DNA of 64,000 nucleotides, from contig CATLBR010000001.1 of the NCBI GenBank assembly GCA_949879795.1, positions 62,001 to 126,000 of the forward strand. The letters run 5' to 3'. Below the pieces are notes generated by a model. It had not been told where the DNA came from. It saw only the letters and a list, made by a program, of their open reading frames with translations, and did not search any database. Positions 27,814 through 41,070 of the stretch are shown here, one piece after another. The stretch's first letter is position 1. Each line of letters starts with the position of its first letter. The position numbers were made by a program, and so were the translations under genes. The DNA comes from an uncultured Hungatella sp. (lineage in GTDB: Bacteria > Bacillota > Clostridia > Lachnospirales > Lachnospiraceae).

Positions 27814-29544
27814 ATGGAAAGAAAATTTATAGGCCAGCTGTCTGGCGCGTGGAAAGAATTTCGGGATTTTGTCATGGAGCACAGAAGGACTGGGTGGTTT
27901 ACGGCTTTTGTGATTCTGGCATCCTGGGGGGTACTGGCGTTTCGCAGGGATATCGGGGTGGACACGGAGATCATGATCCCCTTCCCGGAGAAAATGCTCC
28001 AATCGTGGTGCGGTATCGGGCGGTGGGGGCTTGTATTTACCAAAAGGCTTTTGGGGCTGGGAACCTTCTCCCAGCCGGTGGCCGTGGCCGGCTCCATGGC
28101 CGCGCTGTGGCTGGTGTGCATGGCGGTGAATTTCGCGGTGTGTCAGTGGAGCGGGGGCGGCAGGCGGTACCGATGGTTTTACCCGGCATTCTCTGCCGTA
28201 TATGTCACTTCCCCGTGTCTGGCGGAGCAGTTCTATTTTCTGCTTCAGTCTTTTGAGGTGATCTGGGGAATCCTCATGGCGGTGACCGCCGTGTACGCCA
28301 CCAGCCGGTATGTGTACCGGGGGGAGAGTCCGGGATGGCTGGCGGTGGCTGCGTTCTGCGGCGTGTGGGCCCTGGGTTCCTACCAGGCTATGGCCTGCAT
28401 CTTTATCGGTTTGAGCGGATTTTCATTTCTGCTCCTGTATCAGAGAGGGACATCAGGAGACCAGAAGGGAAGCGCATGGAAATGGTTCCGCAGGGGGGGC
28501 TCATTCGTGGCAGTGTTCCTGGTGATGCTGGCAGGTTATATGGCAGTGTCCGCGGTGGTCAGCCGGGCCGCGGGGGAGGAGTCCGGGTATATCGGGAACA
28601 TGATTCTGTGGAGAAGAGAGCCGGTGAGAAACTGCCTCTACTATATTAAGACAGATATGCGGGACATTTATTTCGGGAAGAAGGTATTCTATTCCGCCCT
28701 CGGCCTTCCTGTGCTGATCCTTGGGACGGCGCTGTTTTTGAGAAGAGGGTGGAAGAGCGGGGAGAGGGGGCGGTTTCTCTATGTGATAGCGGGAGGCTTC
28801 TTCCTGTTTTCTCCCACCTGCATCACCATATTGACGGGGTTCTACCAGGGAGTCCGGGTGCAGATGGCGTATCCCTTTGTTCTGGCCCTCACCTGCGGGG
28901 TTCTCACCACGGTAGGTTTCGGAGAAGGGGGCGGCGCAGGGGAAGAAGACGGTGCAGGGGAGAAGACAGAAGAAGAAAGGCATGTCCTGCAGGAGAAATG
29001 CGGCGGACAGGAGAATGCTTCATGGCGGGGGAGTCATGCCGGGCGGGATAATGCCTCCTGGCGGAAGAGAGAGATGGCAGGGGCAGCGGCGGCCCTGTGC
29101 CTGTGCGGGGCTGTGGCGTGGACCCAGTGGGTCACTTCCCAGCTGCTCCTGGACACCATGCACATGGTCTCTGAGCAGGATATGAAGAAATGTGAGGACA
29201 TCTACCGGACGGCTGAAAGGCTGGCGGCGGAGGAGGGAGAGAATATCCGGGACAAATCCCTGGTGTTTGTGGGGATACAGGAGGCCGAATTAAATCCTTC
29301 GTCCCTGAGAGGGGATATGATCGGCTACTCCATGTTCCAGTGGGATCCAAACAGCATCGTGGGGGTGTCGGAGCGGGTGGGCAACCTGATGCACGCCATG
29401 GGGCTTTCCCACCAGAAGGCCACCCAGCAGCAGTACGAGGCCGCCAAGGCCAGGGCAGCCTCCATGCCCGGCTGGCCCCTGGACGGCTCCGTCGTCCTGG
29501 ACGGGGATATGGTGGTGGTCAAGCTGTCGGATCCGGTCTATTGA
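27814..29544 (+). CDS. GtrII-type glucosyltransferase domain membrane protein
   Basis: 576 residues with about ten membrane helices (TAFVILASWGVLAF; WLAVAAFCGVWALGSYQAMA). The early VDTEIMIPFPEK motif and SYQA/T segment are features of the glucosyltransferase GtrII family (PF14264), which transfers glucose from a lipid carrier to surface glycans. A charged Glu/Gly-rich insertion (~360-410) interrupts the last helices, and the exported C-terminal ~140 residues are soluble. RBS AAGGAACAGAG. A role in decorating a rhamnose-containing polymer with the upstream rml genes is inference. Confidence 0.8.
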   Translation: MERKFIGQLSGAWKEFRDFVMEHRRTGWFTAFVILASWGVLAFRRDIGVDTEIMIPFPEKMLQSWCGIGRWGLVFTKRLLGLGTFSQPVAVAGSMAALWLVCMAVNFAVCQWSGGGRRYRWFYPAFSAVYVTSPCLAEQFYFLLQSFEVIWGILMAVTAVYATSRYVYRGESPGWLAVAAFCGVWALGSYQAMACIFIGLSGFSFLLLYQRGTSGDQKGSAWKWFRRGGSFVAVFLVMLAGYMAVSAVVSRAAGEESGYIGNMILWRREPVRNCLYYIKTDMRDIYFGKKVFYSALGLPVLILGTALFLRRGWKSGERGRFLYVIAGGFFLFSPTCITILTGFYQGVRVQMAYPFVLALTCGVLTTVGFGEGGGAGEEDGAGEKTEEERHVLQEKCGGQENASWRGSHAGRDNASWRKREMAGAAAALCLCGAVAWTQWVTSQLLLDTMHMVSEQDMKKCEDIYRTAERLAAEEGENIRDKSLVFVGIQEAELNPSSLRGDMIGYSMFQWDPNSIVGVSERVGNLMHAMGLSHQKATQQQYEAAKARAASMPGWPLDGSVVLDGDMVVVKLSDPVY

Positions 29545-29707: not shown

Positions 29708-31255
29708 ATGATAGAGTTTGTTTTGCCGTGGCTTATTCCGGGGATTGTGGCGGTTGTTGTGGTTCTGATCCTGGCCAGCGGGTATGTGAAAGCTCCGCCG
29801 GATCAGGCTTACATCATCTCAGGGCTTAAGAAAGAGAGCAAGGTGCTTATAGGACGGGCGGGGATCCGGATACCGTTTCTGGAGAGGATGGACCGGCTGT
29901 ATCTGGGGCAGATGACCGTGGATATCAAGACGGAGCAGCCTGTTCCCACCAACGATTTTATCAACGTGAACGTGGACGCAGTGGCCAAGGTGCGCATCTC
30001 CCTGACCAGCGACGGGATCAAGCTGGCGTCCAAGAACTTCCTGAACAAGGTTCCCACGGATATCACAAGGGATCTTCAGGATTCCCTTCAGGGCAACATG
30101 CGCGAGATCATAGGCACCTTGTCCCTGAAAGAGATCAACACGGACAGAGATTCGTTCTCCGACCAGGTTATGTCCAAAGCGTCCAAGGATATGGATAAGC
30201 TGGGTATCGAGATATTGTCCTGCAATATTCAGAACGTGACGGACGAGAACGGTCTGATCCGGGATCTGGGAGCGGACAACACTTCCAAGATCAAGAAGGA
30301 TGCGGCTATCGCCAAGGCCCAGGCGGACAGGGATATCGCCATCGCCCAGGCCGAGGCCGACAAGGCGTCCAACGACGCCAGAGTCCTGGCTCAGACGGAG
30401 ATCGCCCAGAAGAACAACGAGCTGGCCATCCGGAAAGCGGAACTGCAGAAGGAGTCTGACACCAAGAAGGCTGAGGCCGACGCGGCTTACGAGATCCAGA
30501 AGCAGGAGCAGGAGAAGACCATACAGACCGCCACGGTCAACGCTCAGATCGCCAAGGCGGAGCGAGAGGCAGAGTTGCGCAAGCAGCAGGTTGCCATCCA
30601 GCAGCAGGCACTGGAGGCGGAGATCAACAAGAGAGCAGACGCGGACCGCTACGCCGTGGAACAGAAGGCGGCGGCAGATCTGTCCAAGCGCCAGAGAGAG
30701 GCGGAGGCGAAGAAATATGAGCTGGAGATGGAAGCAGAAGCCATGAAGGCCCAGGCGGAGAAGGAGGCGGAGGCTATGAAGGCCAGAGCCTCAGCGGCCA
30801 GATACGCGGCAGAGCAGGAGGCCGCAGGTATCCGGTTCGCCGCCGAGCAGGAAGCGGCAGGAATTCAGGCCAAGGGCGCCGCGGAGGCCGCCGCCATCCA
30901 GGCCAAGCTCCTGGCGGAGGCGGAAGGTATGGAGAAGAAGGCCGAGGCCTACGCCAAGTACAACAACGCCGCGGTTATAGAGATGATGGTGAACATCATG
31001 CCTCAGATGGCGGCGGAGATCGCCAAACCTTTGGCCAGCATCGACAAGGTGAACATCTACGGAGGCGGCGAGGGCGGCGGCATCACTCAGATGTCGGGTA
31101 GCGGAGCCACGGTGATGCAGCAGGTCTTCGACACCATGTCCGAGGCCACGGGAGTGGATTTCAGGGAGATCCTGAAGGCTCAGACCTTTGACGCCAAGGT
31201 GACCAGGAACATCAATGTGACAGGGATCGGGCAGAAGGAAGAGGGGCAGGAATAG
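29708..31255 (+). CDS. Flotillin-family SPFH membrane-microdomain protein
   Basis: 515 residues; AAGGAGG before the ATG. An N-terminal membrane anchor (LPWLIPGIVAVVVVLILASG) is followed by the SPFH/band-7 domain (~30-200; PPDQAYIISGLKKESKVLIG) and a long Ala/Glu/Lys coiled coil (~205-430) with EA-rich heptads. A short Gly-rich C-terminus follows. Flotillins (FloT/YuaG) organise membrane microdomains. No NfeD partner gene is adjacent. It has its own promoter and two downstream hairpin terminators. Confidence 0.93.
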   Translation: MIEFVLPWLIPGIVAVVVVLILASGYVKAPPDQAYIISGLKKESKVLIGRAGIRIPFLERMDRLYLGQMTVDIKTEQPVPTNDFINVNVDAVAKVRISLTSDGIKLASKNFLNKVPTDITRDLQDSLQGNMREIIGTLSLKEINTDRDSFSDQVMSKASKDMDKLGIEILSCNIQNVTDENGLIRDLGADNTSKIKKDAAIAKAQADRDIAIAQAEADKASNDARVLAQTEIAQKNNELAIRKAELQKESDTKKAEADAAYEIQKQEQEKTIQTATVNAQIAKAEREAELRKQQVAIQQQALEAEINKRADADRYAVEQKAAADLSKRQREAEAKKYELEMEAEAMKAQAEKEAEAMKARASAARYAAEQEAAGIRFAAEQEAAGIQAKGAAEAAAIQAKLLAEAEGMEKKAEAYAKYNNAAVIEMMVNIMPQMAAEIAKPLASIDKVNIYGGGEGGGITQMSGSGATVMQQVFDTMSEATGVDFREILKAQTFDAKVTRNINVTGIGQKEEGQE

Positions 31256-31299
31256 GAGTTTATTAAAAGTAAACCTCCATGCGCCCGGAGGCGGACGCG

Positions 31300-31415
31300 C
31301 CACCACCCATGAAAGTCTGCGGGCGCATTTGGGGTCTACGCTCCGCTTTGGTGATTGCTGAACGTGTGCCACTGGCACACAGCAACCCTGAATTTATGCC
31401 GCCTGTTGGGCGGTG
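31300..31415 (+). repeat. Dispersed intergenic repeat, right copy (inverted relative to the left)
   Basis: Reverse complement of the element at 25208-25330, with the same GTGTGCC/GGCACAC and CCGCC/GGCGG hairpins. It begins about 45 bases after the flotillin stop. Confidence 0.75.
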
Positions 31416-31591
31416 GGATTTTTAAGTAACAGCTACCGGGTATAAGATTCGGCAGCTGTTATTTTTTAAAGAGAAAACCTATTTATTTCGATTAAATAGC
31501 ATGTTCAAAAGATGGAGTTCCTTTTAAGTGATCAGTATTAACACGCTGATTTGTGAGATTTGTGTGACTGTTGTACAGCTGTTGGAATCAC

Positions 31592-31635
31592 AGGACAGGT
31601 ATTTTACAGAGTTTGTAAGGTGCCTGTCCTTTTTG
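31592..31635 (+). terminator. Hairpin terminator
   Basis: AGGACAGG (31592-31599) pairs with CCTGTCCT (31623-31630), followed by TTTTT. Confidence 0.6.
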
Positions 31636-31731
31636 GTGGGAGCGCCATAGGTGCGGAGCAGCCGGCTTTTACAGGGCGGCCGGCTTAACATCAGCCTTGT
31701 CAAAAAAAGGATAAGATTATAGAATAGTAAG

Positions 31732-31770
31732 AAGCCAGACATGATCTGTAACAGACAGCCTGGCTTTTTT
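31732..31770 (+). terminator. Hairpin terminator
   Basis: AAGCCAG (31732-31738) pairs with CTGGCTT (31760-31766) with an inner TCTG/CAGA stem and a T-run. It and the 31592 hairpin would isolate the flotillin region from the recombinase region. Confidence 0.65.
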
Positions 31771-31934
31771 AGTGCCAAAAAACAGCGGAATTTTGAGATT
31801 TTTGCAACATAAATAACAGGCCTCCCAAAAGAAGCCTGCGCGCCGCAAATAAAATGACAGAGATTGTATAACGCAGGGAGGATGAAAGACAGCAGGGTAT
31901 AAACATGAATCCTGTAGTCTGACTGGCTGGTTTC

Positions 31935-31962
31935 TTTCGCAGAATGGCTTAATCCGCGAAAA
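31935..31962 (+). repeat. Inverted repeat, left end of the recombinase cassette
   Basis: 28 bases containing GGCTTAATCCGCGAAAA. The reverse complement of 33411-33438 matches at 27 of 28 positions. Each repeat is itself an imperfect palindrome (TTTCGC...GCGAAA), as expected of a tyrosine recombinase core site. Confidence 0.85.
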
Positions 31963-32005
31963 GGAAAACAGGCATCCTTTCTGTGTTATAAAGTATATCG
32001 GCACT

Positions 32006-32035
32006 ATTCTACCATAACTTAATGGAGATTTGCAA
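32006..32035 (-). promoter_or_regulatory. Outward-facing promoter inside the inverted-repeat cassette
   Basis: On the minus strand TTGCAA (32035-32030), 18-base spacer, TAGAAT (32011-32006). In the present orientation it reads left through the left inverted repeat into the gene-free stretch after flotillin. Confidence 0.45.
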
Positions 32036-32223
32036 TATTTTTTTCTTTGGCACAACCCTGACGCAGCTTATGGGGTGGCGGACATGATATCTTTTTAAGG
32101 CATAGGGAGCCTGGCAGAAGCAAATAATCAACTAAATGCAGGTGTAATAAAGATTTTATGGTCACTTTCATGGTCAAAATCTCCGGGTGAAACCGCCCAG
32201 GACAGACAGAGGAGGAACGAGCA

Positions 32224-33378
32224 ATGGCAAGGCATGGAGAAAACATCAGAAAAAGGAACGATGGGAGGTGGGAGGCACGCTACCCGGTAACGGATAAAGG
32301 CAGAAAAGTCTATCGATCCGTATACGGGAGCACTTACGAGGAGGCAAAGAAGAAACGGGCCGATGTGCTGGGAAACGTGGGAAAGGAACCGAATTATGGG
32401 GCGGATGCGGCGGGACTGCGGCAGGGAGATGAAACCAGCCCCTGCGTGCAGCTTCTGTTCTCACAGGTGGCCTCGGAGTGGATGGAGGAGATATCAGACA
32501 GACATAAATACTCTACCTGTGTGAAGTACGGGAGTGTGTACAGGATACATATGGAAGGGATACTGGGTTCAGTTCTGCTTTCTGGCATATGCGATCAGAG
32601 GATCCAGGAAAAGATTTCTGACCACTTATCCGGGGACGGGCTGTCAGACAGCATTCGCAGGAGCGTCTGCAGCGTGGCCAGGCAGATTCTGGAGTTTGCG
32701 GGAAGGAAGTACGCTGTCTGTGTCCCAGCATTGAAGCTGCCTTCCGGGAAGCCGGGAAAGAGACCAGTGGAGACATTTTCAAAAGCAGAACAGTCACGGC
32801 TCCTAGGGCGCATTTATGGAGAACTGGGAAAATTTGATATCGCCATGCTGTTCTGCCTGCATACGGGGATGCGTCTGGGGGAATTGTGTGCCTTAAAGTG
32901 GACGGACTTTGACTTTGGGGACGGGACGGTGACCGTGAACAGGACGGTGCAGCGTATCGCCGTAAAGGGATATATGACAAGGACGGTCCTCATGGAGACC
33001 AGCCCCAAAAGTGAAAGTTCCAGAAGGACAATTCCCCTGACAGATGAGATTATCAAGCTGCTGAAAGAATTCAGAGGGAAGGGGGACTATGTGTTCGGGG
33101 GGGATAAGCCTCTTGAGCCCAGGACCATGCAGTATCGGATGAAGAAGATTTTAAAGGAAGCGGGGGTGGACGGGAGAAACTTCCACATTCTGCGCCATAC
33201 ATTCGCCACCAACTGTGTGGAGAGCGGCGTAGATATAAAAACCTTAAGCGTGATACTGGGGCACTCTGACGTGAGGATCACCCTGAACCGCTATGTGCAT
33301 CCCACCATGGATTCCAGGAGGAGGCAGCTTGGCAGGCTGTCGGATTTTTATGGTCAGATTTGTGGTCAGGCGGCCTGA
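32224..33378 (+). CDS. Tyrosine recombinase/integrase
   Basis: 384 residues; AGGAGGAACGAGC before the ATG. An AP2-like arm-binding N-terminus (NIRKRNDGRWEARYPVTDKG) precedes a core-binding SAM-like domain and a catalytic domain. The catalytic tetrad is intact: Arg in HTGMRLGELCALKW, HxxR in FHILRHTFATN, His in ILGHSDV, and the nucleophile Tyr in NRYVHPT. It resembles ICE/Tn916-type integrases, but no excisionase, relaxase or conjugation gene is nearby. The flanking 28-bp inverted repeats suggest a local invertase role instead. Confidence 0.92.
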   Translation: MARHGENIRKRNDGRWEARYPVTDKGRKVYRSVYGSTYEEAKKKRADVLGNVGKEPNYGADAAGLRQGDETSPCVQLLFSQVASEWMEEISDRHKYSTCVKYGSVYRIHMEGILGSVLLSGICDQRIQEKISDHLSGDGLSDSIRRSVCSVARQILEFAGRKYAVCVPALKLPSGKPGKRPVETFSKAEQSRLLGRIYGELGKFDIAMLFCLHTGMRLGELCALKWTDFDFGDGTVTVNRTVQRIAVKGYMTRTVLMETSPKSESSRRTIPLTDEIIKLLKEFRGKGDYVFGGDKPLEPRTMQYRMKKILKEAGVDGRNFHILRHTFATNCVESGVDIKTLSVILGHSDVRITLNRYVHPTMDSRRRQLGRLSDFYGQICGQAA

Positions 33379-33410
33379 AAATATACTGTGTCTGCTGGGG
33401 TTTGGGCGGA

Positions 33411-33438
33411 TTTTCGCGGATTAAGCCAGTCTGCGAAA
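33411..33438 (-). repeat. Inverted repeat, right end of the recombinase cassette
   Basis: Partner of 31935-31962; 33 bases after the recombinase stop and 83 bases before the TnpB-like start. Confidence 0.85.
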
Positions 33439-33520
33439 AAGTATTCTTCCCAGATATGCCGGAATTCATCCTGGCGCTGCCGGGCTTCCGGGCTGAACCG
33501 GTGTGGCAGGCAGGGCTTGT

Positions 33521-34855
33521 ATGAAAGGGCATAAGGATACTATATATAAGACCGTTTATCAATACAATCGTGTTCCGATTTCCGCCGCTGACATGGAGCG
33601 GATGCAGGAGATCGCCAGGGATTGCAGGGAGGTCAGGAATTATGTCTATGACCGTTACAGCAGCATCCACAGCCTCTCGAAGATCTATCCGGGTTATACA
33701 GTGCAGAATGAGATGACCAGGTGCGGGCTGAGGGAAAGGCTGGGCCTTCCGTCTGTGTATTTTTATTTATCCATCTTTGATGCCCTGGGAGATATCAAAG
33801 GCCGATGGGAGAGGATAAAAAGCCAGATCGAAAAAAATATTCGTGACAATCCGAACCTGACGCCCCAGGACAGACATTACCTGCGTTTTGTGATGAAGCA
33901 GAGCCAGTGCTTCGAGTCGATTCTTGCGGGAGGGAAACCGGAACTAAAAGGAAATTGGAAAGAAAGTTATGAGACTGTCTGTATGGGTGTGGATACTCAC
34001 AGGCTGGATCAGTATCTCCGCAGACAGGTGCGCCGCCATCTGGTCAAACCTCATACCGATACGGCGGACGGATTTCCCGTTTCCCCCAAAGGATACCGAT
34101 ATGGGGATCATGGAATCTATCTTTCCATGAAGGAAAACCGAAAAAGGCTTTTTATTCCTCTGACAGATAACAATCGGTACTCAAGGCAGATTTACATCCT
34201 GCTTTATCCTGAAGAAAACAGGATTATGATTAACGTCCCTGTGGAAGTGAGACAGAGGCATCCTGCAGGGTATGACGGGGAGACAGGGCTGGCCATGGGG
34301 CTTAAGTGCATGTTTGTGACGGACCAGGGCAGGGCCTACGGGGAGAGATATCTGGAATACCAGTCGGCTCTCACAGACTATGTACGGGAAAGGCTGCCGC
34401 GCCACCAGAGAAATGCGAAAACAAATCCAGGAATGAAAAAGTATAATGCCGGGAAGGCCAGACTGGAAAAAGCGATGCATGATTATGTGAATGGGGAGAT
34501 CAACAGGCTGTTGGAAACGGAAAGACCAGGGACTGTTTATCTGCCGAAGCTGCCCGCCCAGTCAAAGGCCGGTTACAACGGCCGGGTGAACGCCACAGTG
34601 AATATGTGGCAGAAGGGATTCGTAAAACGCAGGCTGGCCCAGAAGTGCAGGGAACGTTCCATCGAGCTGGTGGAGGTGTTCGGGAAAGGGATCAGCAGCC
34701 AGTGCAGCCGGTGCGGGGCGGAGGGCGAGAAGAAAGAGGATATGTTTCGGTGTCCGGCTTGCAGATTGGAACTGAAGGAGAGAGAGAATACCGCGAGAAA
34801 TGTTCTGAAAAGGGGACAGGCGAGGCGGGAAAAAAGAGAGCGAGGTTCATTGTGA
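33521..34855 (+). CDS. Nuclease-dead TnpB-family (IS605 OrfB-like) protein
   Basis: 444 residues from the ATG at 33521 (an in-frame GTG at 33503 is possible; neither has a good RBS). The TnpB fold is recognisable: N-terminal REC-like helices, a RuvC-like region, and a C-terminal zinc finger CSRCG/CPAC (C395, C398, C411, C414). All three RuvC acidic positions are changed: GIDLG-type Asp is Ala258 (GLAMGLK), the IVxED-type Glu is Pro342 (VYLPKLP), and the DRDxNAA Asp is Arg421 (KERENTARN). Glu420/422 are nearby but the other two sites are clearly lost. It likely binds RNA/DNA without cutting, as described for TldR proteins. No TnpA is adjacent. Confidence 0.82.
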   Translation: MKGHKDTIYKTVYQYNRVPISAADMERMQEIARDCREVRNYVYDRYSSIHSLSKIYPGYTVQNEMTRCGLRERLGLPSVYFYLSIFDALGDIKGRWERIKSQIEKNIRDNPNLTPQDRHYLRFVMKQSQCFESILAGGKPELKGNWKESYETVCMGVDTHRLDQYLRRQVRRHLVKPHTDTADGFPVSPKGYRYGDHGIYLSMKENRKRLFIPLTDNNRYSRQIYILLYPEENRIMINVPVEVRQRHPAGYDGETGLAMGLKCMFVTDQGRAYGERYLEYQSALTDYVRERLPRHQRNAKTNPGMKKYNAGKARLEKAMHDYVNGEINRLLETERPGTVYLPKLPAQSKAGYNGRVNATVNMWQKGFVKRRLAQKCRERSIELVEVFGKGISSQCSRCGAEGEKKEDMFRCPACRLELKERENTARNVLKRGQARREKRERGSL

Positions 34856-34869
34856 GGGATTTTGCGGAT

Positions 34870-35031
34870 GAACGTGTCGTAAGGCGCGTTTGACCGAAAC
34901 TGCAGTGCAGGAATAGGAACGCAGGAGACTTCTTTTGATAGAAAAACAAGAACGGCGTTAGAAGCCGGTTCTTTCGGGAACCGGGTATTGGGTACGCCAA
35001 GACCTGTGGGAACTTCCAGGCGGGATTTTTT
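34870..35031 (+). ncRNA. Candidate omega-RNA/guide-RNA-like structured RNA downstream of the TnpB-like gene
   Basis: The stretch contains the GAAGCC-plus-hairpin arrangement common at the 3' end of TnpB omega-RNA scaffolds: CCGGTTC (34965-34971) pairs with GAACCGG (34978-34984) around a UUCG-type loop. GGCGT (34954-34958) and ACGCC (34994-34998) enclose it. Another small hairpin (CCTG/CAGG, 35003-35020) and a T-run end it at ~35031. A guide would be expected just after 34984. The placement follows established TnpB biology; that it is a functional guide RNA is inference. Confidence 0.35.
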
Positions 35032-35110
35032 GTGTGGGAGAAGTACCGGGAGCGAAGCGGGCGGGACGGTGACGACCTGCCGGCATCACCCTGTTGGAGT
35101 GGGTGACGAA

Positions 35111-35209
35111 ATGTGCCTTATTAAAATGATTATATCGCTTGTGGGAATTGGTTTTTCCTTAGAGTTGATGTTTGGAGGTGATTCTATCCCGATAACGGGT
35201 GGAATATAG
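35111..35209 (+). CDS. Small hydrophobic peptide ORF
   Basis: A 32-codon ORF (MCLIKMIISLVGIGFSLELM at the start) encodes one hydrophobic segment and a polar tail. It lies between the structured RNA and the membrane-anchored protein, 41 bases before the latter. A TCACCC/GGGTGA hairpin sits just before it. RBS is weak (GGGTGACGA), so it may be a leader peptide or not translated. Confidence 0.3.
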   Translation: MCLIKMIISLVGIGFSLELMFGGDSIPITGGI

Positions 35210-35250
35210 TCTCGGAAACGGAGACAAAAGCAAGATGGAGGTGTGCTGCA

Positions 35251-35781
35251 ATGGAGAAAGACACAGGGCAAAACAAGTCACTTGGGAAAGGAGGGAAAAT
35301 AGCGATTTTTGCCGGTATAGCGGTTATCATTGCCCTTCTGGGTGTGATCATCCTGTTGCTTCTTCGGGGACGAAATGAAGAAGAACCGAGACGTAATGTT
35401 GTGATTACGCCAGACAACGTGGAGGAAGTGGTTCAGGAGATGCTGACTCAGGAATTCGTGGAGCCAGGATATTATAGTGCTTCTATGACCAATATATGGC
35501 ATTTCGCGACTGGTGACGCAGTGTCGGAGGATGCGTTTGTTGAAAACAAAGAAGAAAATACAAATGATGTATATTTTGATGTTTTTCTTGCGGAAGATGA
35601 AGAAACTCCTATACTGCAGTCCCCTGTAATCCCAAGGGGAGCGGAATTAGATAATATAGCGCTTGATACCCCTCTGGAGGCTGGAACCTATGACTGTGTG
35701 ATGGTTTATCATTTGGTAGATGATGAGCAGAATACAATCAGTACACTTCGTGTAGGCATCACGATTATCGTGGAGCAGTAA
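35251..35781 (+). CDS. Single-pass membrane-anchored extracytoplasmic protein
   Basis: 176 residues; GGAGGTG before the ATG. A basic N-terminus and one transmembrane helix (IAIFAGIAVIIALLGVIILL, ~17-38) anchor an acidic extracytoplasmic beta-rich domain (EFVEPGYYSASMTNIWHFAT; PLEAGTYDCVMVYHLVDDEQ). It is followed 72 bases later by a secreted protein and probably acts as its accessory or anchor. The family is familiar from Lachnospiraceae surface loci but I know no function. Confidence 0.7.
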   Translation: MEKDTGQNKSLGKGGKIAIFAGIAVIIALLGVIILLLLRGRNEEEPRRNVVITPDNVEEVVQEMLTQEFVEPGYYSASMTNIWHFATGDAVSEDAFVENKEENTNDVYFDVFLAEDEETPILQSPVIPRGAELDNIALDTPLEAGTYDCVMVYHLVDDEQNTISTLRVGITIIVEQ

Positions 35782-35853
35782 AAAGTAGTAACCCCTGCCA
35801 GGGATGACGGGGGAGACAAAGATGATTCAATGAAAATGAGGAGGAAGAGATTT

Positions 35854-36999
35854 ATGCGCAAATTAAAAAGAGCAGTAGCAATTACAATGGCGGCTACGAT
35901 GTTGTTGGGTAGTTCTCTTACAGCTTTTGCAGCAGGTGAGACTAGCGGTGAGTCGGTAGGTACAGGTGCTTCAGAAGGGCATGTCGATAAAAAAGTGACG
36001 AATGTAGTACTTCCTACATTAGTAGAAGGAGCTGCATCTGCGTTTAATTATACGATGGACCCAGAAGGTCTTGTAAGCGGAACAGATCATGCGAAGTATG
36101 AAAATGCGATATTCCCAGCAGATGGAGATACTGGCGTTTATTTCAATAATGGTAAAAAGGGCGGTGACGGTGTTGATAAAGAGAATACCGTATATGCTAA
36201 CTCAAGTATTTCTCTGGAAGCTGTAAATAAGAGCAGTCATGCAATTAATTTAACAGTAAAGGCAGAAGCAGTGAGCGCAGATACGGATATTCCGCTTGTC
36301 GCAAAAGATGCCCTTGCAGGAGCGACCGATGCATCACTTTACCTTGGTCTGATTGTTGATACAGAAGCTGCTGTAGCTATAACAAAAGATGCGGTAGCTA
36401 CGAAAACTGTAAGCGTTGGTGGAACGGACGCTAACTTTAAGGTTGCTGCAAATGCCGATAAAGATGGATATGAGTATCGTGAACTTACGCTTACAGAGTG
36501 GCAGGGCCTTGATGGTAATACTGGTAAGACTCAAAGTGATATGGATGCAACATGGAGTAAAGCTACCTTTAAACTGGAAGGTGCCACAACCACAAATAAG
36601 GTTATCACATCAACTACAACCGCACCCAATGTTAAGGTGACTTGGAGTTGGGTGGATCCGACTGCAAATGCAGCGCCGAGTATTGCTGTGACTACATATA
36701 ATAATGTGAATATGGGCAGTGCGGAAGGTGGAGATGTAGCAGTTCAGGTTAATCTTGGAATAGGAACATTGGCGGCAACGGGTATTGCAAGCGTTAAACG
36801 AGGAAATGATGCTTTAGCAGCAAATATGTACTCATTTGACTCCACAACCAAGGTGCTTACATTGTCCAGGGCAAATGTGTTGCAATATTGGAATATGGAT
36901 TCCGTAACACTAACCGTAACATTTGAAGGGGAGGCAGCTTCAACACCAACGACAGTTAATATTATCCTGAATAAAGGTGCGGCAAGTGCAAGCGACTGA
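35854..36999 (+). CDS. Secreted surface structural protein (pilin- or S-layer-like)
   Basis: 381 residues. GAGGAGGAAG before the ATG at 35854 decides this start over the in-frame ATG at 35830. A signal peptide ending in LTAFAAG is followed by a Thr/Ala/Asn-rich, almost Cys-free beta-type protein (VTNVVLPTLVEGAASAFNYT; NTVYANSSISLEAVNKSSHA). No LPxTG sorting signal is visible, so anchoring may depend on the preceding membrane protein. Composition and high predicted secretion suggest an abundant surface layer or filament subunit. It lies downstream of the candidate DNA switch and may be phase variable. Confidence 0.72.
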   Translation: MRKLKRAVAITMAATMLLGSSLTAFAAGETSGESVGTGASEGHVDKKVTNVVLPTLVEGAASAFNYTMDPEGLVSGTDHAKYENAIFPADGDTGVYFNNGKKGGDGVDKENTVYANSSISLEAVNKSSHAINLTVKAEAVSADTDIPLVAKDALAGATDASLYLGLIVDTEAAVAITKDAVATKTVSVGGTDANFKVAANADKDGYEYRELTLTEWQGLDGNTGKTQSDMDATWSKATFKLEGATTTNKVITSTTTAPNVKVTWSWVDPTANAAPSIAVTTYNNVNMGSAEGGDVAVQVNLGIGTLAATGIASVKRGNDALAANMYSFDSTTKVLTLSRANVLQYWNMDSVTLTVTFEGEAASTPTTVNIILNKGAASASD

Positions 37000-37097: not shown

Positions 37098-38252
37098 ATG
37101 GGAATTCAATTATTTAAACCGCATTACGAGATAGAGGAGTGCCTTAAAGAAATACGTGATTGTCTGGAAAAGGGTTGGACAGGGTTGGGGTATAAGACTG
37201 TAGAATTTGAAAAGGCATGGAAAGAATATACGAGATTACCGTTTGCGTATCATGTAAATTCTGCGACTATAGGTTTGTATTTTGCTGTTGATATCTTAAA
37301 AGAACGATATGGATGGAGCGATGGAGATGAGATTATAACAACACCATTAACTTTTGTTTCCACCAATCATGCGATTCTCAAATCAAATTTGACACCAGTT
37401 TTTGCAGATATAGATGAGACACTATGCCTTTCTCCGCATTCTGTCAGGGAGAAAGTCACAGAGAAAAGCCGTGCTGTAATGTTTGTTGGAATGGGGGGCA
37501 ATACAGGAAACTATAAAGAAATTGTGGAAATTTGTAAAGAAAATGGACTGGCATTAATCTTAGATGCAGCGCATATGGCTGGAACAAGATTGAACGGGGA
37601 AATACCTGGAAAGGAAGCAGAGGCAGTCATCTATTCATTTCAGGCAGTAAAGAATCTTCCGACAGCAGATAGTGGGATGTTATGTTTTAGAGATGGTGAT
37701 TTGGATGCCATAGCGCGTAAAAAAGGGTGGTTGGGAATTAATAAAGATACCTATACTCGCACAAGTGATGCCGGGAATTATAAGTGGAGATATGAAGTTG
37801 ATTATGTTGGGGACAAGGCTCATGGAAATTCTGTAATGGCTGCAATTGGTTTGGCACAATTAAAGTTTTTAGATCGTGACAATGCATACAGACGTCAGAT
37901 TGCCACATGGTATAGGGAGCAATTACAAGGTCATGAGGAATATATAAGGACAATACCGATTGCTAAGGGATGCGAGTCCTCTACACATCTTTTCCAAGTA
38001 CTGGTGAATAATAGAGACGAGGTAATGATGCGGTTAAATTCACAGGATATTTTTCCAGGTGTGCATTATACAAATAACCAGAAGTATTCTATGTATCGGG
38101 ATAAAGGAAAAAAGTGCCCATATGCTGAGTATGTAAGTGAACATGTCATTTCGTTGCCGATGCATATGGAGTTAACCTATGAGGATGTAATATATATTTC
38201 AAAGTTACTGGTAGAGTCAGCAGAATATAAATTAGATGGAATAGATAAATAG
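37098..38252 (+). CDS. DegT/DnrJ/EryC1/StrS-family PLP aminotransferase
   Basis: 384 residues of the sugar aminotransferase fold. Features are FVSTNHAILKSNLTPVFADI, LILDAAHMAGT (cofactor Asp), and YSFQAVKNLPTADSGML, where the Lys would bind PLP. Such enzymes aminate nucleotide keto-sugars. First gene of the AT-rich glycan cluster; RBS AGGGAAAG. It ends one base before the next gene, so the two are translationally linked. The exact sugar is unknown. Confidence 0.9.
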   Translation: MGIQLFKPHYEIEECLKEIRDCLEKGWTGLGYKTVEFEKAWKEYTRLPFAYHVNSATIGLYFAVDILKERYGWSDGDEIITTPLTFVSTNHAILKSNLTPVFADIDETLCLSPHSVREKVTEKSRAVMFVGMGGNTGNYKEIVEICKENGLALILDAAHMAGTRLNGEIPGKEAEAVIYSFQAVKNLPTADSGMLCFRDGDLDAIARKKGWLGINKDTYTRTSDAGNYKWRYEVDYVGDKAHGNSVMAAIGLAQLKFLDRDNAYRRQIATWYREQLQGHEEYIRTIPIAKGCESSTHLFQVLVNNRDEVMMRLNSQDIFPGVHYTNNQKYSMYRDKGKKCPYAEYVSEHVISLPMHMELTYEDVIYISKLLVESAEYKLDGIDK

Positions 38253-39221: not shown

Positions 39222-40067
39222 ATGAATTGCTTACTGACAGGTGCAAGTGGATATATTGGGAAATATGTATGTAGTGAATTAAAACAAAGAAATATTATTT
39301 ATAAAAGCCCATCTAGGCAAGAATTGGATTTGTCAGATTATACTCAGGTATGTGATTATATAGAAACAAATAATATCAGCAATATTATTCATCTTGCGGC
39401 GAAAATTGACACAGATAATAGTTCAGATATTTTTGAAGGCAATATTCGTATGTTATATATACTTTTGAGATCCGCGATTGATAGGCAGATACAACACTTC
39501 ACATTTGTCAGCACCAATAATGTTTATGGAACAGAGTATAATGGAGTAATTAAAGAATCGGATCGCTGTGTTCCGTGTTTTTATAATGATTATGCGTTAT
39601 CGAAATACGTGGGAGAATTGATAGTAATGGATCAGATGCAAGAAAGTGCGGTGGACTATGCAATCGCCCGCGTTTCGGATGTATATGGTCCAAATCAAAA
39701 AAGAGGAGAATTAATAAAGCATATTATTCAAAATATGAGAAATGGTGTTTCGCAGGAGATATATGGGTCTGGAAAAAGGAAGAGAGATTATCTATATGTG
39801 GAAGATGCGGCCAGGGCACTGGTATATATAAGCGAACATCATCTGAATGGTATCTATAATGTGTCAACAGGAATTGGGACGAGCGTTTGTGAAGTGGTGG
39901 AATGTGCGGAACGTATTGTTAAATGTGGAATTAAGAAAATAGGGGTGAAACAAGAGAAAGAAGATAAAACTTGTATTGTACTTGATAATAGTAAGTTATC
40001 CCGTGAGGGTTATACATATACAATCAGTATAACTGATGGATTAAAGAAAATAATAAACGAAACGTAA
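39222..40067 (+). CDS. NAD-dependent epimerase/dehydratase (extended SDR)
   Basis: 281 residues. The NAD motif TGASGYIGK is at the start, and SDR catalytic residues appear as STNNVYG and YALSKYVGE (YxxxK). The segment RVSDVYGPNQKRGELIKHII is typical of nucleotide-sugar epimerases. Weak RBS (AAGAGGAAA). Probable sugar nucleotide epimerase or dehydratase for this cluster. Confidence 0.9.
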   Translation: MNCLLTGASGYIGKYVCSELKQRNIIYKSPSRQELDLSDYTQVCDYIETNNISNIIHLAAKIDTDNSSDIFEGNIRMLYILLRSAIDRQIQHFTFVSTNNVYGTEYNGVIKESDRCVPCFYNDYALSKYVGELIVMDQMQESAVDYAIARVSDVYGPNQKRGELIKHIIQNMRNGVSQEIYGSGKRKRDYLYVEDAARALVYISEHHLNGIYNVSTGIGTSVCEVVECAERIVKCGIKKIGVKQEKEDKTCIVLDNSKLSREGYTYTISITDGLKKIINET

Positions 40068-40083
40068 TAAGGTGAGTGAATCC

Positions 40084-41070
40084 ATGAATATTATGGTTAC
40101 TGGTGCGGGGAGCACGATGGGGCAGAGTGTAATAAAGGCACTTTTATTTTCTAAATATGGAAAAAGCATGAATTTATATGTGACAAATTCGGAGCCGCTT
40201 GGAGCTGGATATTTTATGACAGACCGGATTAGGGGTAGGTACATTGTACCAGTTGCAAAAGATCACGCATATGTTGACGCGATAATAAAAATATGTCGCG
40301 AACACCAGATAAGAGCGGTCTTTTCGGGAACTGAACACGAAATAAGAGCGTTGTCTGCCGCGTCAGAAAGAATATATGATGAAACAGGCGCAAAAGTAAT
40401 GCTGTCCAGATCTGAGATAGTAGAAATGGGGACTGATAAATATAAAACATATCTGTTTTTTAAAAAGCGTGGGCTTTGTTTCCCTAAAACAGCTTTATAT
40501 AAGGACTATAAAAACTTTATTCATGAGATAGGAGGCTTCCCTATTTTTATGAAGCCTAGAATTTCGTCTGCCTCAAGGAATATCTATGTGATCAGAAACG
40601 AGAAGGAACTGATTGAAAAAAAATTTGATGATGATGACAGGATTATTCTGCAAGAGTATTTGGATAGTGATATAGAATATACAGTTGAAGTGTTCTGCGA
40701 TAAGTCAGGAAAAGCAGTTGGCGTTATTCCGATGAAAAGAAAATTGGAATATGGAATGTCAATTTTTGGGGAAATTGATTGTAATGAGAACGTAATTGAT
40801 GAATGTAAAAAAATTGGAGAAGAAATCAAACCGGAAGGTGCTTTAAATATTCAACTGAAGATAGTAGGTGGAAAGATTGTGCCGTTTGAGATAAATACAC
40901 GATTTTCGTCAACGGAATGTGTGCGTGCTCATTACGGATTTAACGCGGTAGAAGCCGCGATTGATCATTATATATTAGATATGCCTGTTGAGTTAAACAA
41001 ATGGCGAACGGGTATGTTTATACGATATTGGGAAGAATGTTATTTTGAAAATGCAGATATTCCAAAATAG
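40084..41070 (+). CDS. ATP-grasp enzyme, carbamoyl-phosphate-synthase-like
   Basis: 328 residues; ATG at 40084 with AAGGTGAG upstream is preferred over the GTG at 40072. An N-terminal Rossmann-like domain (NIMVTGAGSTMGQSVIKALL) is followed by the ATP-grasp fold: FPIFMKPRISSASRNIY, IILQEYLDSDIEYTVEVFCD and the metal site VPFEINTRFSSTE. It probably ligates an amino acid or amine to a carboxylated sugar. Partner and substrate unknown. Four bases after the epimerase. Confidence 0.85.
   Translation: MNIMVTGAGSTMGQSVIKALLFSKYGKSMNLYVTNSEPLGAGYFMTDRIRGRYIVPVAKDHAYVDAIIKICREHQIRAVFSGTEHEIRALSAASERIYDETGAKVMLSRSEIVEMGTDKYKTYLFFKKRGLCFPKTALYKDYKNFIHEIGGFPIFMKPRISSASRNIYVIRNEKELIEKKFDDDDRIILQEYLDSDIEYTVEVFCDKSGKAVGVIPMKRKLEYGMSIFGEIDCNENVIDECKKIGEEIKPEGALNIQLKIVGGKIVPFEINTRFSSTECVRAHYGFNAVEAAIDHYILDMPVELNKWRTGMFIRYWEECYFENADIPK

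Follow-up and report, generated by a model that had tools for sequence, protein, structure and literature searches.

A nuclease-dead TnpB clade tied to a structured RNA and invertible segments ahead of surface operons in Lachnospiraceae

What would a TnpB that has lost its nuclease centre do between a DNA-inversion switch and a set of surface-protein genes? The question is raised by a gene in a stretch of 64,000 nucleotides from an uncultured Hungatella sp. (contig CATLBR010000001.1; this whole stretch is hereafter the window), whose product, a nuclease-dead TnpB homologue, is here named dTnpB. Sequence comparison shows a stable loss of the catalytic acids from the window protein, a TnpB, and an evolutionary tie of its clade to a single structured RNA and to putative invertible promoter segments (invertons) heading surface-protein and glycan operons. 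The predicted module consists of the inverton, dTnpB, the structured RNA and the surface operon, in that order. Up to the first gene of the operon, its parts lie in the window as follows.

31935..31962, no strand: left arm of the inverted repeat that bounds the inverton; its 28 nt are 96% complementary to 33411-33438.
32006..32035, minus strand: promoter-like site TTGCAA-N18-TAGAAT within the inverton, a consensus match only.
32224..33378, plus strand: tyrosine recombinase gene within the inverton (Pfam Phage_integrase, E-value 1e-30).
33411..33438, no strand: right inverted repeat of the inverton, pairing with 31935-31962.
33521..34855, plus strand: dTnpB, recognized by its open reading frame (ORF), Pfam and NCBIfam matches, fold and alignment.
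34866..34947, plus strand: 5' conserved part of the RNA, with approximate bounds, seen by eye in unaligned downstream sequences and outside the covariance model.
34948..35122, plus strand: core of the structured RNA, from ACGGC to its conserved 3' end TGCCTTATT, defined by the covariance model and covariation.
35123..35250, plus strand: variable stretch past the RNA, the sole guide candidate and the leader to the first gene; its first 20 nt have no second match with up to three mismatches in the own genome.

The dTnpB ORF is open from an ATG start and encodes 444 residues. Its product matches the Pfam family Cas12f1-like_TNB (E-value 4e-8) and NCBIfam NF040570 guided_TnpB (E-value 7e-16, under that model's cut-off), and in a fold comparison of the predicted structure residues 4-440, the whole chain, align to TnpB/Cas12f structures; no NusG match was among the matches listed. 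A first-pass annotation of the window, made from the letters alone, had described a full-length ORF with an intact zinc finger, and both the reading frame and the CxxC pairs (C395/C398 and C411/C414) agree with it. It had also assigned the canonical Asp, Glu and Asp positions to Ala258, Pro342 and Arg421. Alignment with intact TnpBs (L125-L129), all of which keep GIDLG, AYED and the aspartate after the zinc finger, places A258, P342 and R421 at these same positions, so that the intact D-E-D RuvC triad of active TnpBs from IS200/IS605 and IS607 is absent from dTnpB. No column that is at least 85% acidic lies within five residues of A258, P342 or R421, by conservation rather than by distance in a structure.

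The loss extends to the whole clade. Homologues of dTnpB (E-value 1e-10 or better) are present in 18 genomes of a 397-genome family sample that includes the own genome, and a contig scan added 15 further loci, including those of Schaedlerella arabinosiphila, Sporofaciens musculi and Acetatifactor muris. The clade belongs to Lachnospiraceae and comprises 44 distinct full-length loci once repeats of one place are removed, the others sharing 33-80% identity with the window protein. None of the 44 keeps any of the three RuvC acids: the motif I residue is A in 25, S in 17 and Y in 2; the motif II residue is P in 26, V in 14, A in 3 and T in 1; and the motif III residue is K in 26, R in 16, S in 1 and A in 1. 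These counts leave aside a chimeric row (L069, with I, P and R), truncated loci (L045, L067, L068, L070 and L071) and duplicates of one place (L001-L030, replaced by longer loci where possible, L032, L036 and L038-L042). L059, with one in-frame TGA, is counted among the 44 and left out of the protein set A1, in which all 43 proteins match the TNB domain. The ratio of nonsynonymous to synonymous substitution rates (dN/dS) is 0.06-0.16 in the 10 pairs, of 13, whose dS was unsaturated, although seven of these ten have a dS above 1; together with the uniform loss of the acids, these values bear out the earlier view of catalytic loss without decay. Several genomes hold more than one copy, with seven in S. 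musculi and three in S. arabinosiphila. Searches of viral contigs, phages and plasmids returned nothing of use, the phages and plasmids yielding distant TnpBs only. One S. arabinosiphila candidate (L112) was set aside as a different RuvC protein with its GLDIG motif kept.

One companion of dTnpB is the RNA. In an alignment of 27 sequences, 24 pairs are recovered, of which 16 show compensatory changes; 500 shuffles all fall short on each of five measures, and pairing of 95% falls to 30-41% once slid. The resulting covariance model, R1, matches the window at 34948-35128 with 169 bits (E-value 6e-49, for a training sequence). The model finds the RNA directly downstream of dTnpB in 43 of the 44 loci, including 19 that were not used for training (E-values 3e-38 to 2e-7), and the model has no match at six other TnpB loci, two above the TnpB family cut-off (L072 and L093) and four with an intact triad (L125-L128). 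Across the family sample, the RNA occurs in 17 genomes, every one among the 18 with dTnpB; in the eighteenth, G370, a more sensitive search found it (L064). A second, smaller genome set gives the same picture, with the RNA in 8/8 genomes that have dTnpB and 0/6 that do not. In an Rfam scan of the window, the sole match at gathering score is a tRNA-Trp; a known family for the RNA was rejected, as just three weak matches, to unrelated families, were returned. Individual loci vary in this region. L107 and L108 carry one hairpin in three to four tandem copies past the dTnpB stop (GGTCATCAACC...GGTTGGTGAC type), and L104-L107, L159 and L160 have a second motif like AAAGTATATGTGCCTTATTTA about 40-70 nt past the RNA end, resembling the RNA 3' end without the preceding hairpin. 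At L150 (8828-8970), an intact-looking RNA persists although only a fragment is left of the dTnpB ahead of it.

The second companion lies upstream. Inverted repeats enclose a segment that bears a promoter by consensus, and both orientations are seen among related loci, as is typical of invertons; many relatives have a similar inverted repeat (TTTCGCAGA...TCTGCGAAA type). When one test is applied across loci, an inverted repeat ends near the dTnpB start in 35/44, compared with 3/44, 1/42, 2/41, 1/42 and 1/22 at shifted anchors. These putative invertons measure ~1.4 kb where they hold a recombinase and ~100-115 bp or 300-400 bp where they do not. Homologues of the tyrosine recombinase are found in 28 of 42 clustered neighbour loci, a set that includes repeats of one place, mostly just upstream and on either strand. 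A candidate outward promoter lies 5' of the recombinase in 19 of 21 recombinase-holding invertons, and in six of them (L110, L103, L113, L053, L054 and L056) it is a perfect TTGACA-N17-TATAAT, again by consensus match only. Where the recombinase is on the minus strand, the candidate promoter therefore faces dTnpB; this is so in 6 of 22 loci (L103, L033, L047, L113, L053 and L057), the recombinase of the other 16 being on the plus strand. The promoter-like site of the window faces away from dTnpB, which would be the OFF orientation. Among the seven S. musculi loci, a simple consensus scan finds one (L103) with an inward-facing promoter, while in the other six, which have short invertons, the away-facing site leads the best inward site by only 0.5-2 points. 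One inward locus of seven fits expression of one operon at a time, weakly so, for such a count would often be expected by chance too. Extra inverted repeats occur at L049 (30 nt, after the dTnpB stop) and L104 (67 nt, around the inverton). Seven loci with dTnpB and the RNA (L058, L062, L063, L116, L115, L050 and L059) have no inverton that we could find.

Downstream of the RNA, the operon usually consists of surface-protein or glycan genes. The surface-protein pair and the inversion switch that the first-pass annotation placed near dTnpB are both present in the window (35251 and 35830; 31935-31962 / 33411-33438), and the genes that follow the RNA are listed below.

35251..35781, plus strand: first gene of the surface pair; by eye, its product carries a membrane segment at the N-terminus; neighbour family 4, in 12/42 clustered loci (repeats included), with weak sub-cut-off Pfam matches only.
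35830..36999, plus strand: second gene of the pair, a probable secreted surface protein with a signal peptide by eye; neighbour family 5, in 11/42 clustered loci (repeats included), with no Pfam match.
37098..38252, plus strand: DegT/DnrJ/EryC1 aminotransferase, first of the glycan genes (Pfam, E-value 4e-76).
39222..40067, plus strand: NAD-dependent epimerase (Pfam, E-value 1e-37).
40072..41070, plus strand: ATP-grasp protein (Pfam, E-value 2e-12).

Across loci, the downstream genes encode glycosyltransferase 2, LicD, cytidylyltransferase-oxidoreductase fusions, epimerases and nucleotidyltransferases; the representative of the commonest downstream family (family 2) has no Pfam match. Upstream of the inverton, the window encodes a GtrII-type glucosyltransferase (27814-29544; Pfam E-value 1e-32) and a flotillin/SPFH protein (29708-31255).

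What the module does is best approached through G283, a draft genome assembly that is 95% complete. Three intact RNAs (L158-L160) are each preceded there by an inverton of ~100-110 bp and followed by an operon with glycan genes by eye, and no dTnpB lies within the stretches fetched around them, that of L160 reaching only ~1.2 kb upstream. The genome also encodes dTnpB at full length (L052). Upstream of this gene no inverton was detected, and in its 15 kb, searched with filters off, no RNA match beats E-value 0.048; the genome may hold further dTnpBs, as the protein search scored at most four candidates per genome. In G283, then, it is the RNA rather than dTnpB that remains with the operon, and this observation hints more strongly than any other at a role of the RNA in the leader and at a capacity of dTnpB to act in trans.

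The best reading, to which we give slightly less than an even chance, is that an exapted dead TnpB binds a leader RNA and so controls a phase-variable operon. Under this reading, the recombinase would invert the promoter segment, and a promoter facing inward would lead to co-transcription of dTnpB, the RNA and the operon. dTnpB would then bind the RNA within the operon 5' leader, the RNA being encoded alongside or supplied in trans, and the resulting ribonucleoprotein (RNP) would set the level of operon transcription through antitermination-like control or gating, the direction of the effect being left unspecified. The former guide RNA would now be a cis-acting leader element that no longer requires a variable guide. 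The full conversion, from TnpB nuclease to leader-RNA-binding operon regulator, with the guide RNA turned into a 5' leader in cis and dTnpB from elsewhere able to serve in trans, is a more tentative proposal. Several observations weigh against control through a leader RNA. The RNA sits directly behind the TnpB ORF, as expected of a guide RNA, and the orphan RNAs of G283 fit distributed guide RNAs equally well. An inverton is undetected in 9 of the 44 loci, and some loci that lack one have no clear surface operon downstream; at L058, for example, the nearest ORF downstream of the RNA suggests, by eye, a PadR-type regulator and not a surface gene. Finally, an intrinsic terminator adjoining the RNA was considered and rejected: terminator-like sites follow the RNA in 7/49 loci and occur in 5/49 in a control stretch, and because they are not enriched, a simple attenuation or antitermination scheme is unsupported.

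The alternative that survives best, though we consider it unlikely, is that dTnpB uses the variable sequence past CTTATT as a guide, as a TldR would, to bind and repress matching DNA such as the promoters of other surface operons, leaving one on. TldRs include an oppF-associated group, and their guides can be short. With fliC-, oppF- and csrA-associated TldRs, dTnpB shares descent from TnpB, the loss of the RuvC acids, an adjacent RNA and domestication near surface-structure genes. With the csrA group it also shares a DNA inversion upstream: csrA-TldRs encoded beside hin and a ~120-bp inversion at flagellin genes are already published and predicted to cross-target flagellins (PMC13418256), and they are the nearest case among the literature matches listed. 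The likeness extends to a TnpB-type protein with all RuvC acids lost in an intact ORF under purifying selection, to an RNA at the guide-RNA position with a conserved end and then variable sequence, and to several module copies per genome, as in S. musculi, where the simple consensus scan gives one inward-facing locus. In contrast to those TldRs, dTnpB accompanies glycan and surface-protein operons of Lachnospiraceae, a tyrosine recombinase rather than hin, and RNAs that stand alone as operon leaders, and no guide target was found for it.

The searches for such a target argue against guided repression, as does the sequence itself, since the initial positions past CTTATT include a few partly conserved A/T positions before the variable sequence. 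Five 20-nt candidate guides have no second match with up to two mismatches in their respective genomes, although the own genome assembly is 65% complete and guides of 9-11 nt could escape such searches. With three mismatches, the guides give 0, 1, 1, 3 and 0 matches, compared with 0, 0, 0, 0 and 2 for reversed-pattern controls, and all five guide matches lie inside ORFs with no flanking motif in common. A guide aimed at other loci of the same genome was likewise rejected, as 26 guides match same-genome loci and promoters no better than those of other genomes (mean 7.79 versus 7.67 nt). Because TldR guides can be short, the missing targets lower the probability of guided repression rather than eliminate it. 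The first-pass label of TldR-like is supported for a nuclease-dead TnpB with a structured RNA at the place of the guide RNA; RNA-guided repression, for which no target was found, is so far unsupported. As to the context, which that annotation did not know as described, no report of this clade is among the literature matches listed (Wiegand 2024 and Altae-Tran 2023, outside that coverage, may mention it), and a dead TnpB beside a DNA inversion is not entirely novel, being described for csrA-TldR (PMC13418256).

Two further alternatives are improbable. In the first, dTnpB or its RNP would act on inversion itself, setting the direction or frequency of recombination. dTnpB does adjoin invertons of differing repeats and sizes, but 9/44 loci have no detected inverton, and shared sequence between the RNA and the inverton region was rejected, with 41 shared 11-mers compared with 47 in the control. 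In the second, marginally less probable still, the conserved RNA 3' end (CAATATGCCTTATT) would be a fixed guide that itself recognizes DNA, including the second motif copy ~40-70 nt downstream at L104-L107, L159 and L160. S. musculi has 11 such motifs against 3 in a reversed control, but 8 of the 11 are at RNA ends or adjoining second motifs and the other 3 equal the control, which leads us to reject a fixed guide that recognizes many places in the genome; the 3' end may be merely part of the RNA. That dTnpB is a decaying passenger without function, as fragments in some genomes (L067, L070, L071 and L150) and the in-frame stop of the full-length L059 might suggest, is rejected as very improbable, given the low dN/dS, the close co-occurrence with the RNA and the fact that no full-length locus retains any of the three acids while the remainder of the protein is conserved.

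The leader-RNA reading also differs from other known systems. dTnpB shares its fold, its zinc finger and an RNA encoded 3' of the ORF with the TnpB/omegaRNA of IS200/IS605 and IS607, but lacks the catalytic acids, has a tyrosine recombinase inside an inverton as its neighbour and is followed by an RNA whose model misses the six other TnpB loci. Bacteroides capsule loci have invertible promoters with UpxY/UpxZ as first genes, and share an invertible promoter, a regulator gene that heads every surface-polysaccharide operon and several loci per genome; the regulator here would be a dead TnpB accompanied by a structured RNA rather than a NusG-like antiterminator with its inhibitor, in another phylum. 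Cas12k has the TnpB fold and binds target DNA without cutting it, and the available part of the literature on Cas12m describes the same; fold matches link dTnpB to this group too. Both are, however, associated with clustered regularly interspaced short palindromic repeats (CRISPR), and no array-like repeats are among those listed for window positions 31200-35900, the stretch scanned. The invertons of Clostridioides difficile (flgB, cwpV; RecV) likewise, in another member of Clostridia, place a DNA-inversion switch ahead of surface or flagellar operons, and the available part of that source mentions no dTnpB or RNA partner.

The module raises the question of whether evolution can turn a guide RNA into a leader RNA, a transition of which we know no description. 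Cultured species with up to seven copies (Sporofaciens musculi) make direct testing possible. If the leader-RNA reading is true, dTnpB would represent a further cellular use of a CRISPR ancestor, and gut Lachnospiraceae would exert phase-variable control of their surface through an RNA for which no Rfam family reaches its gathering score.
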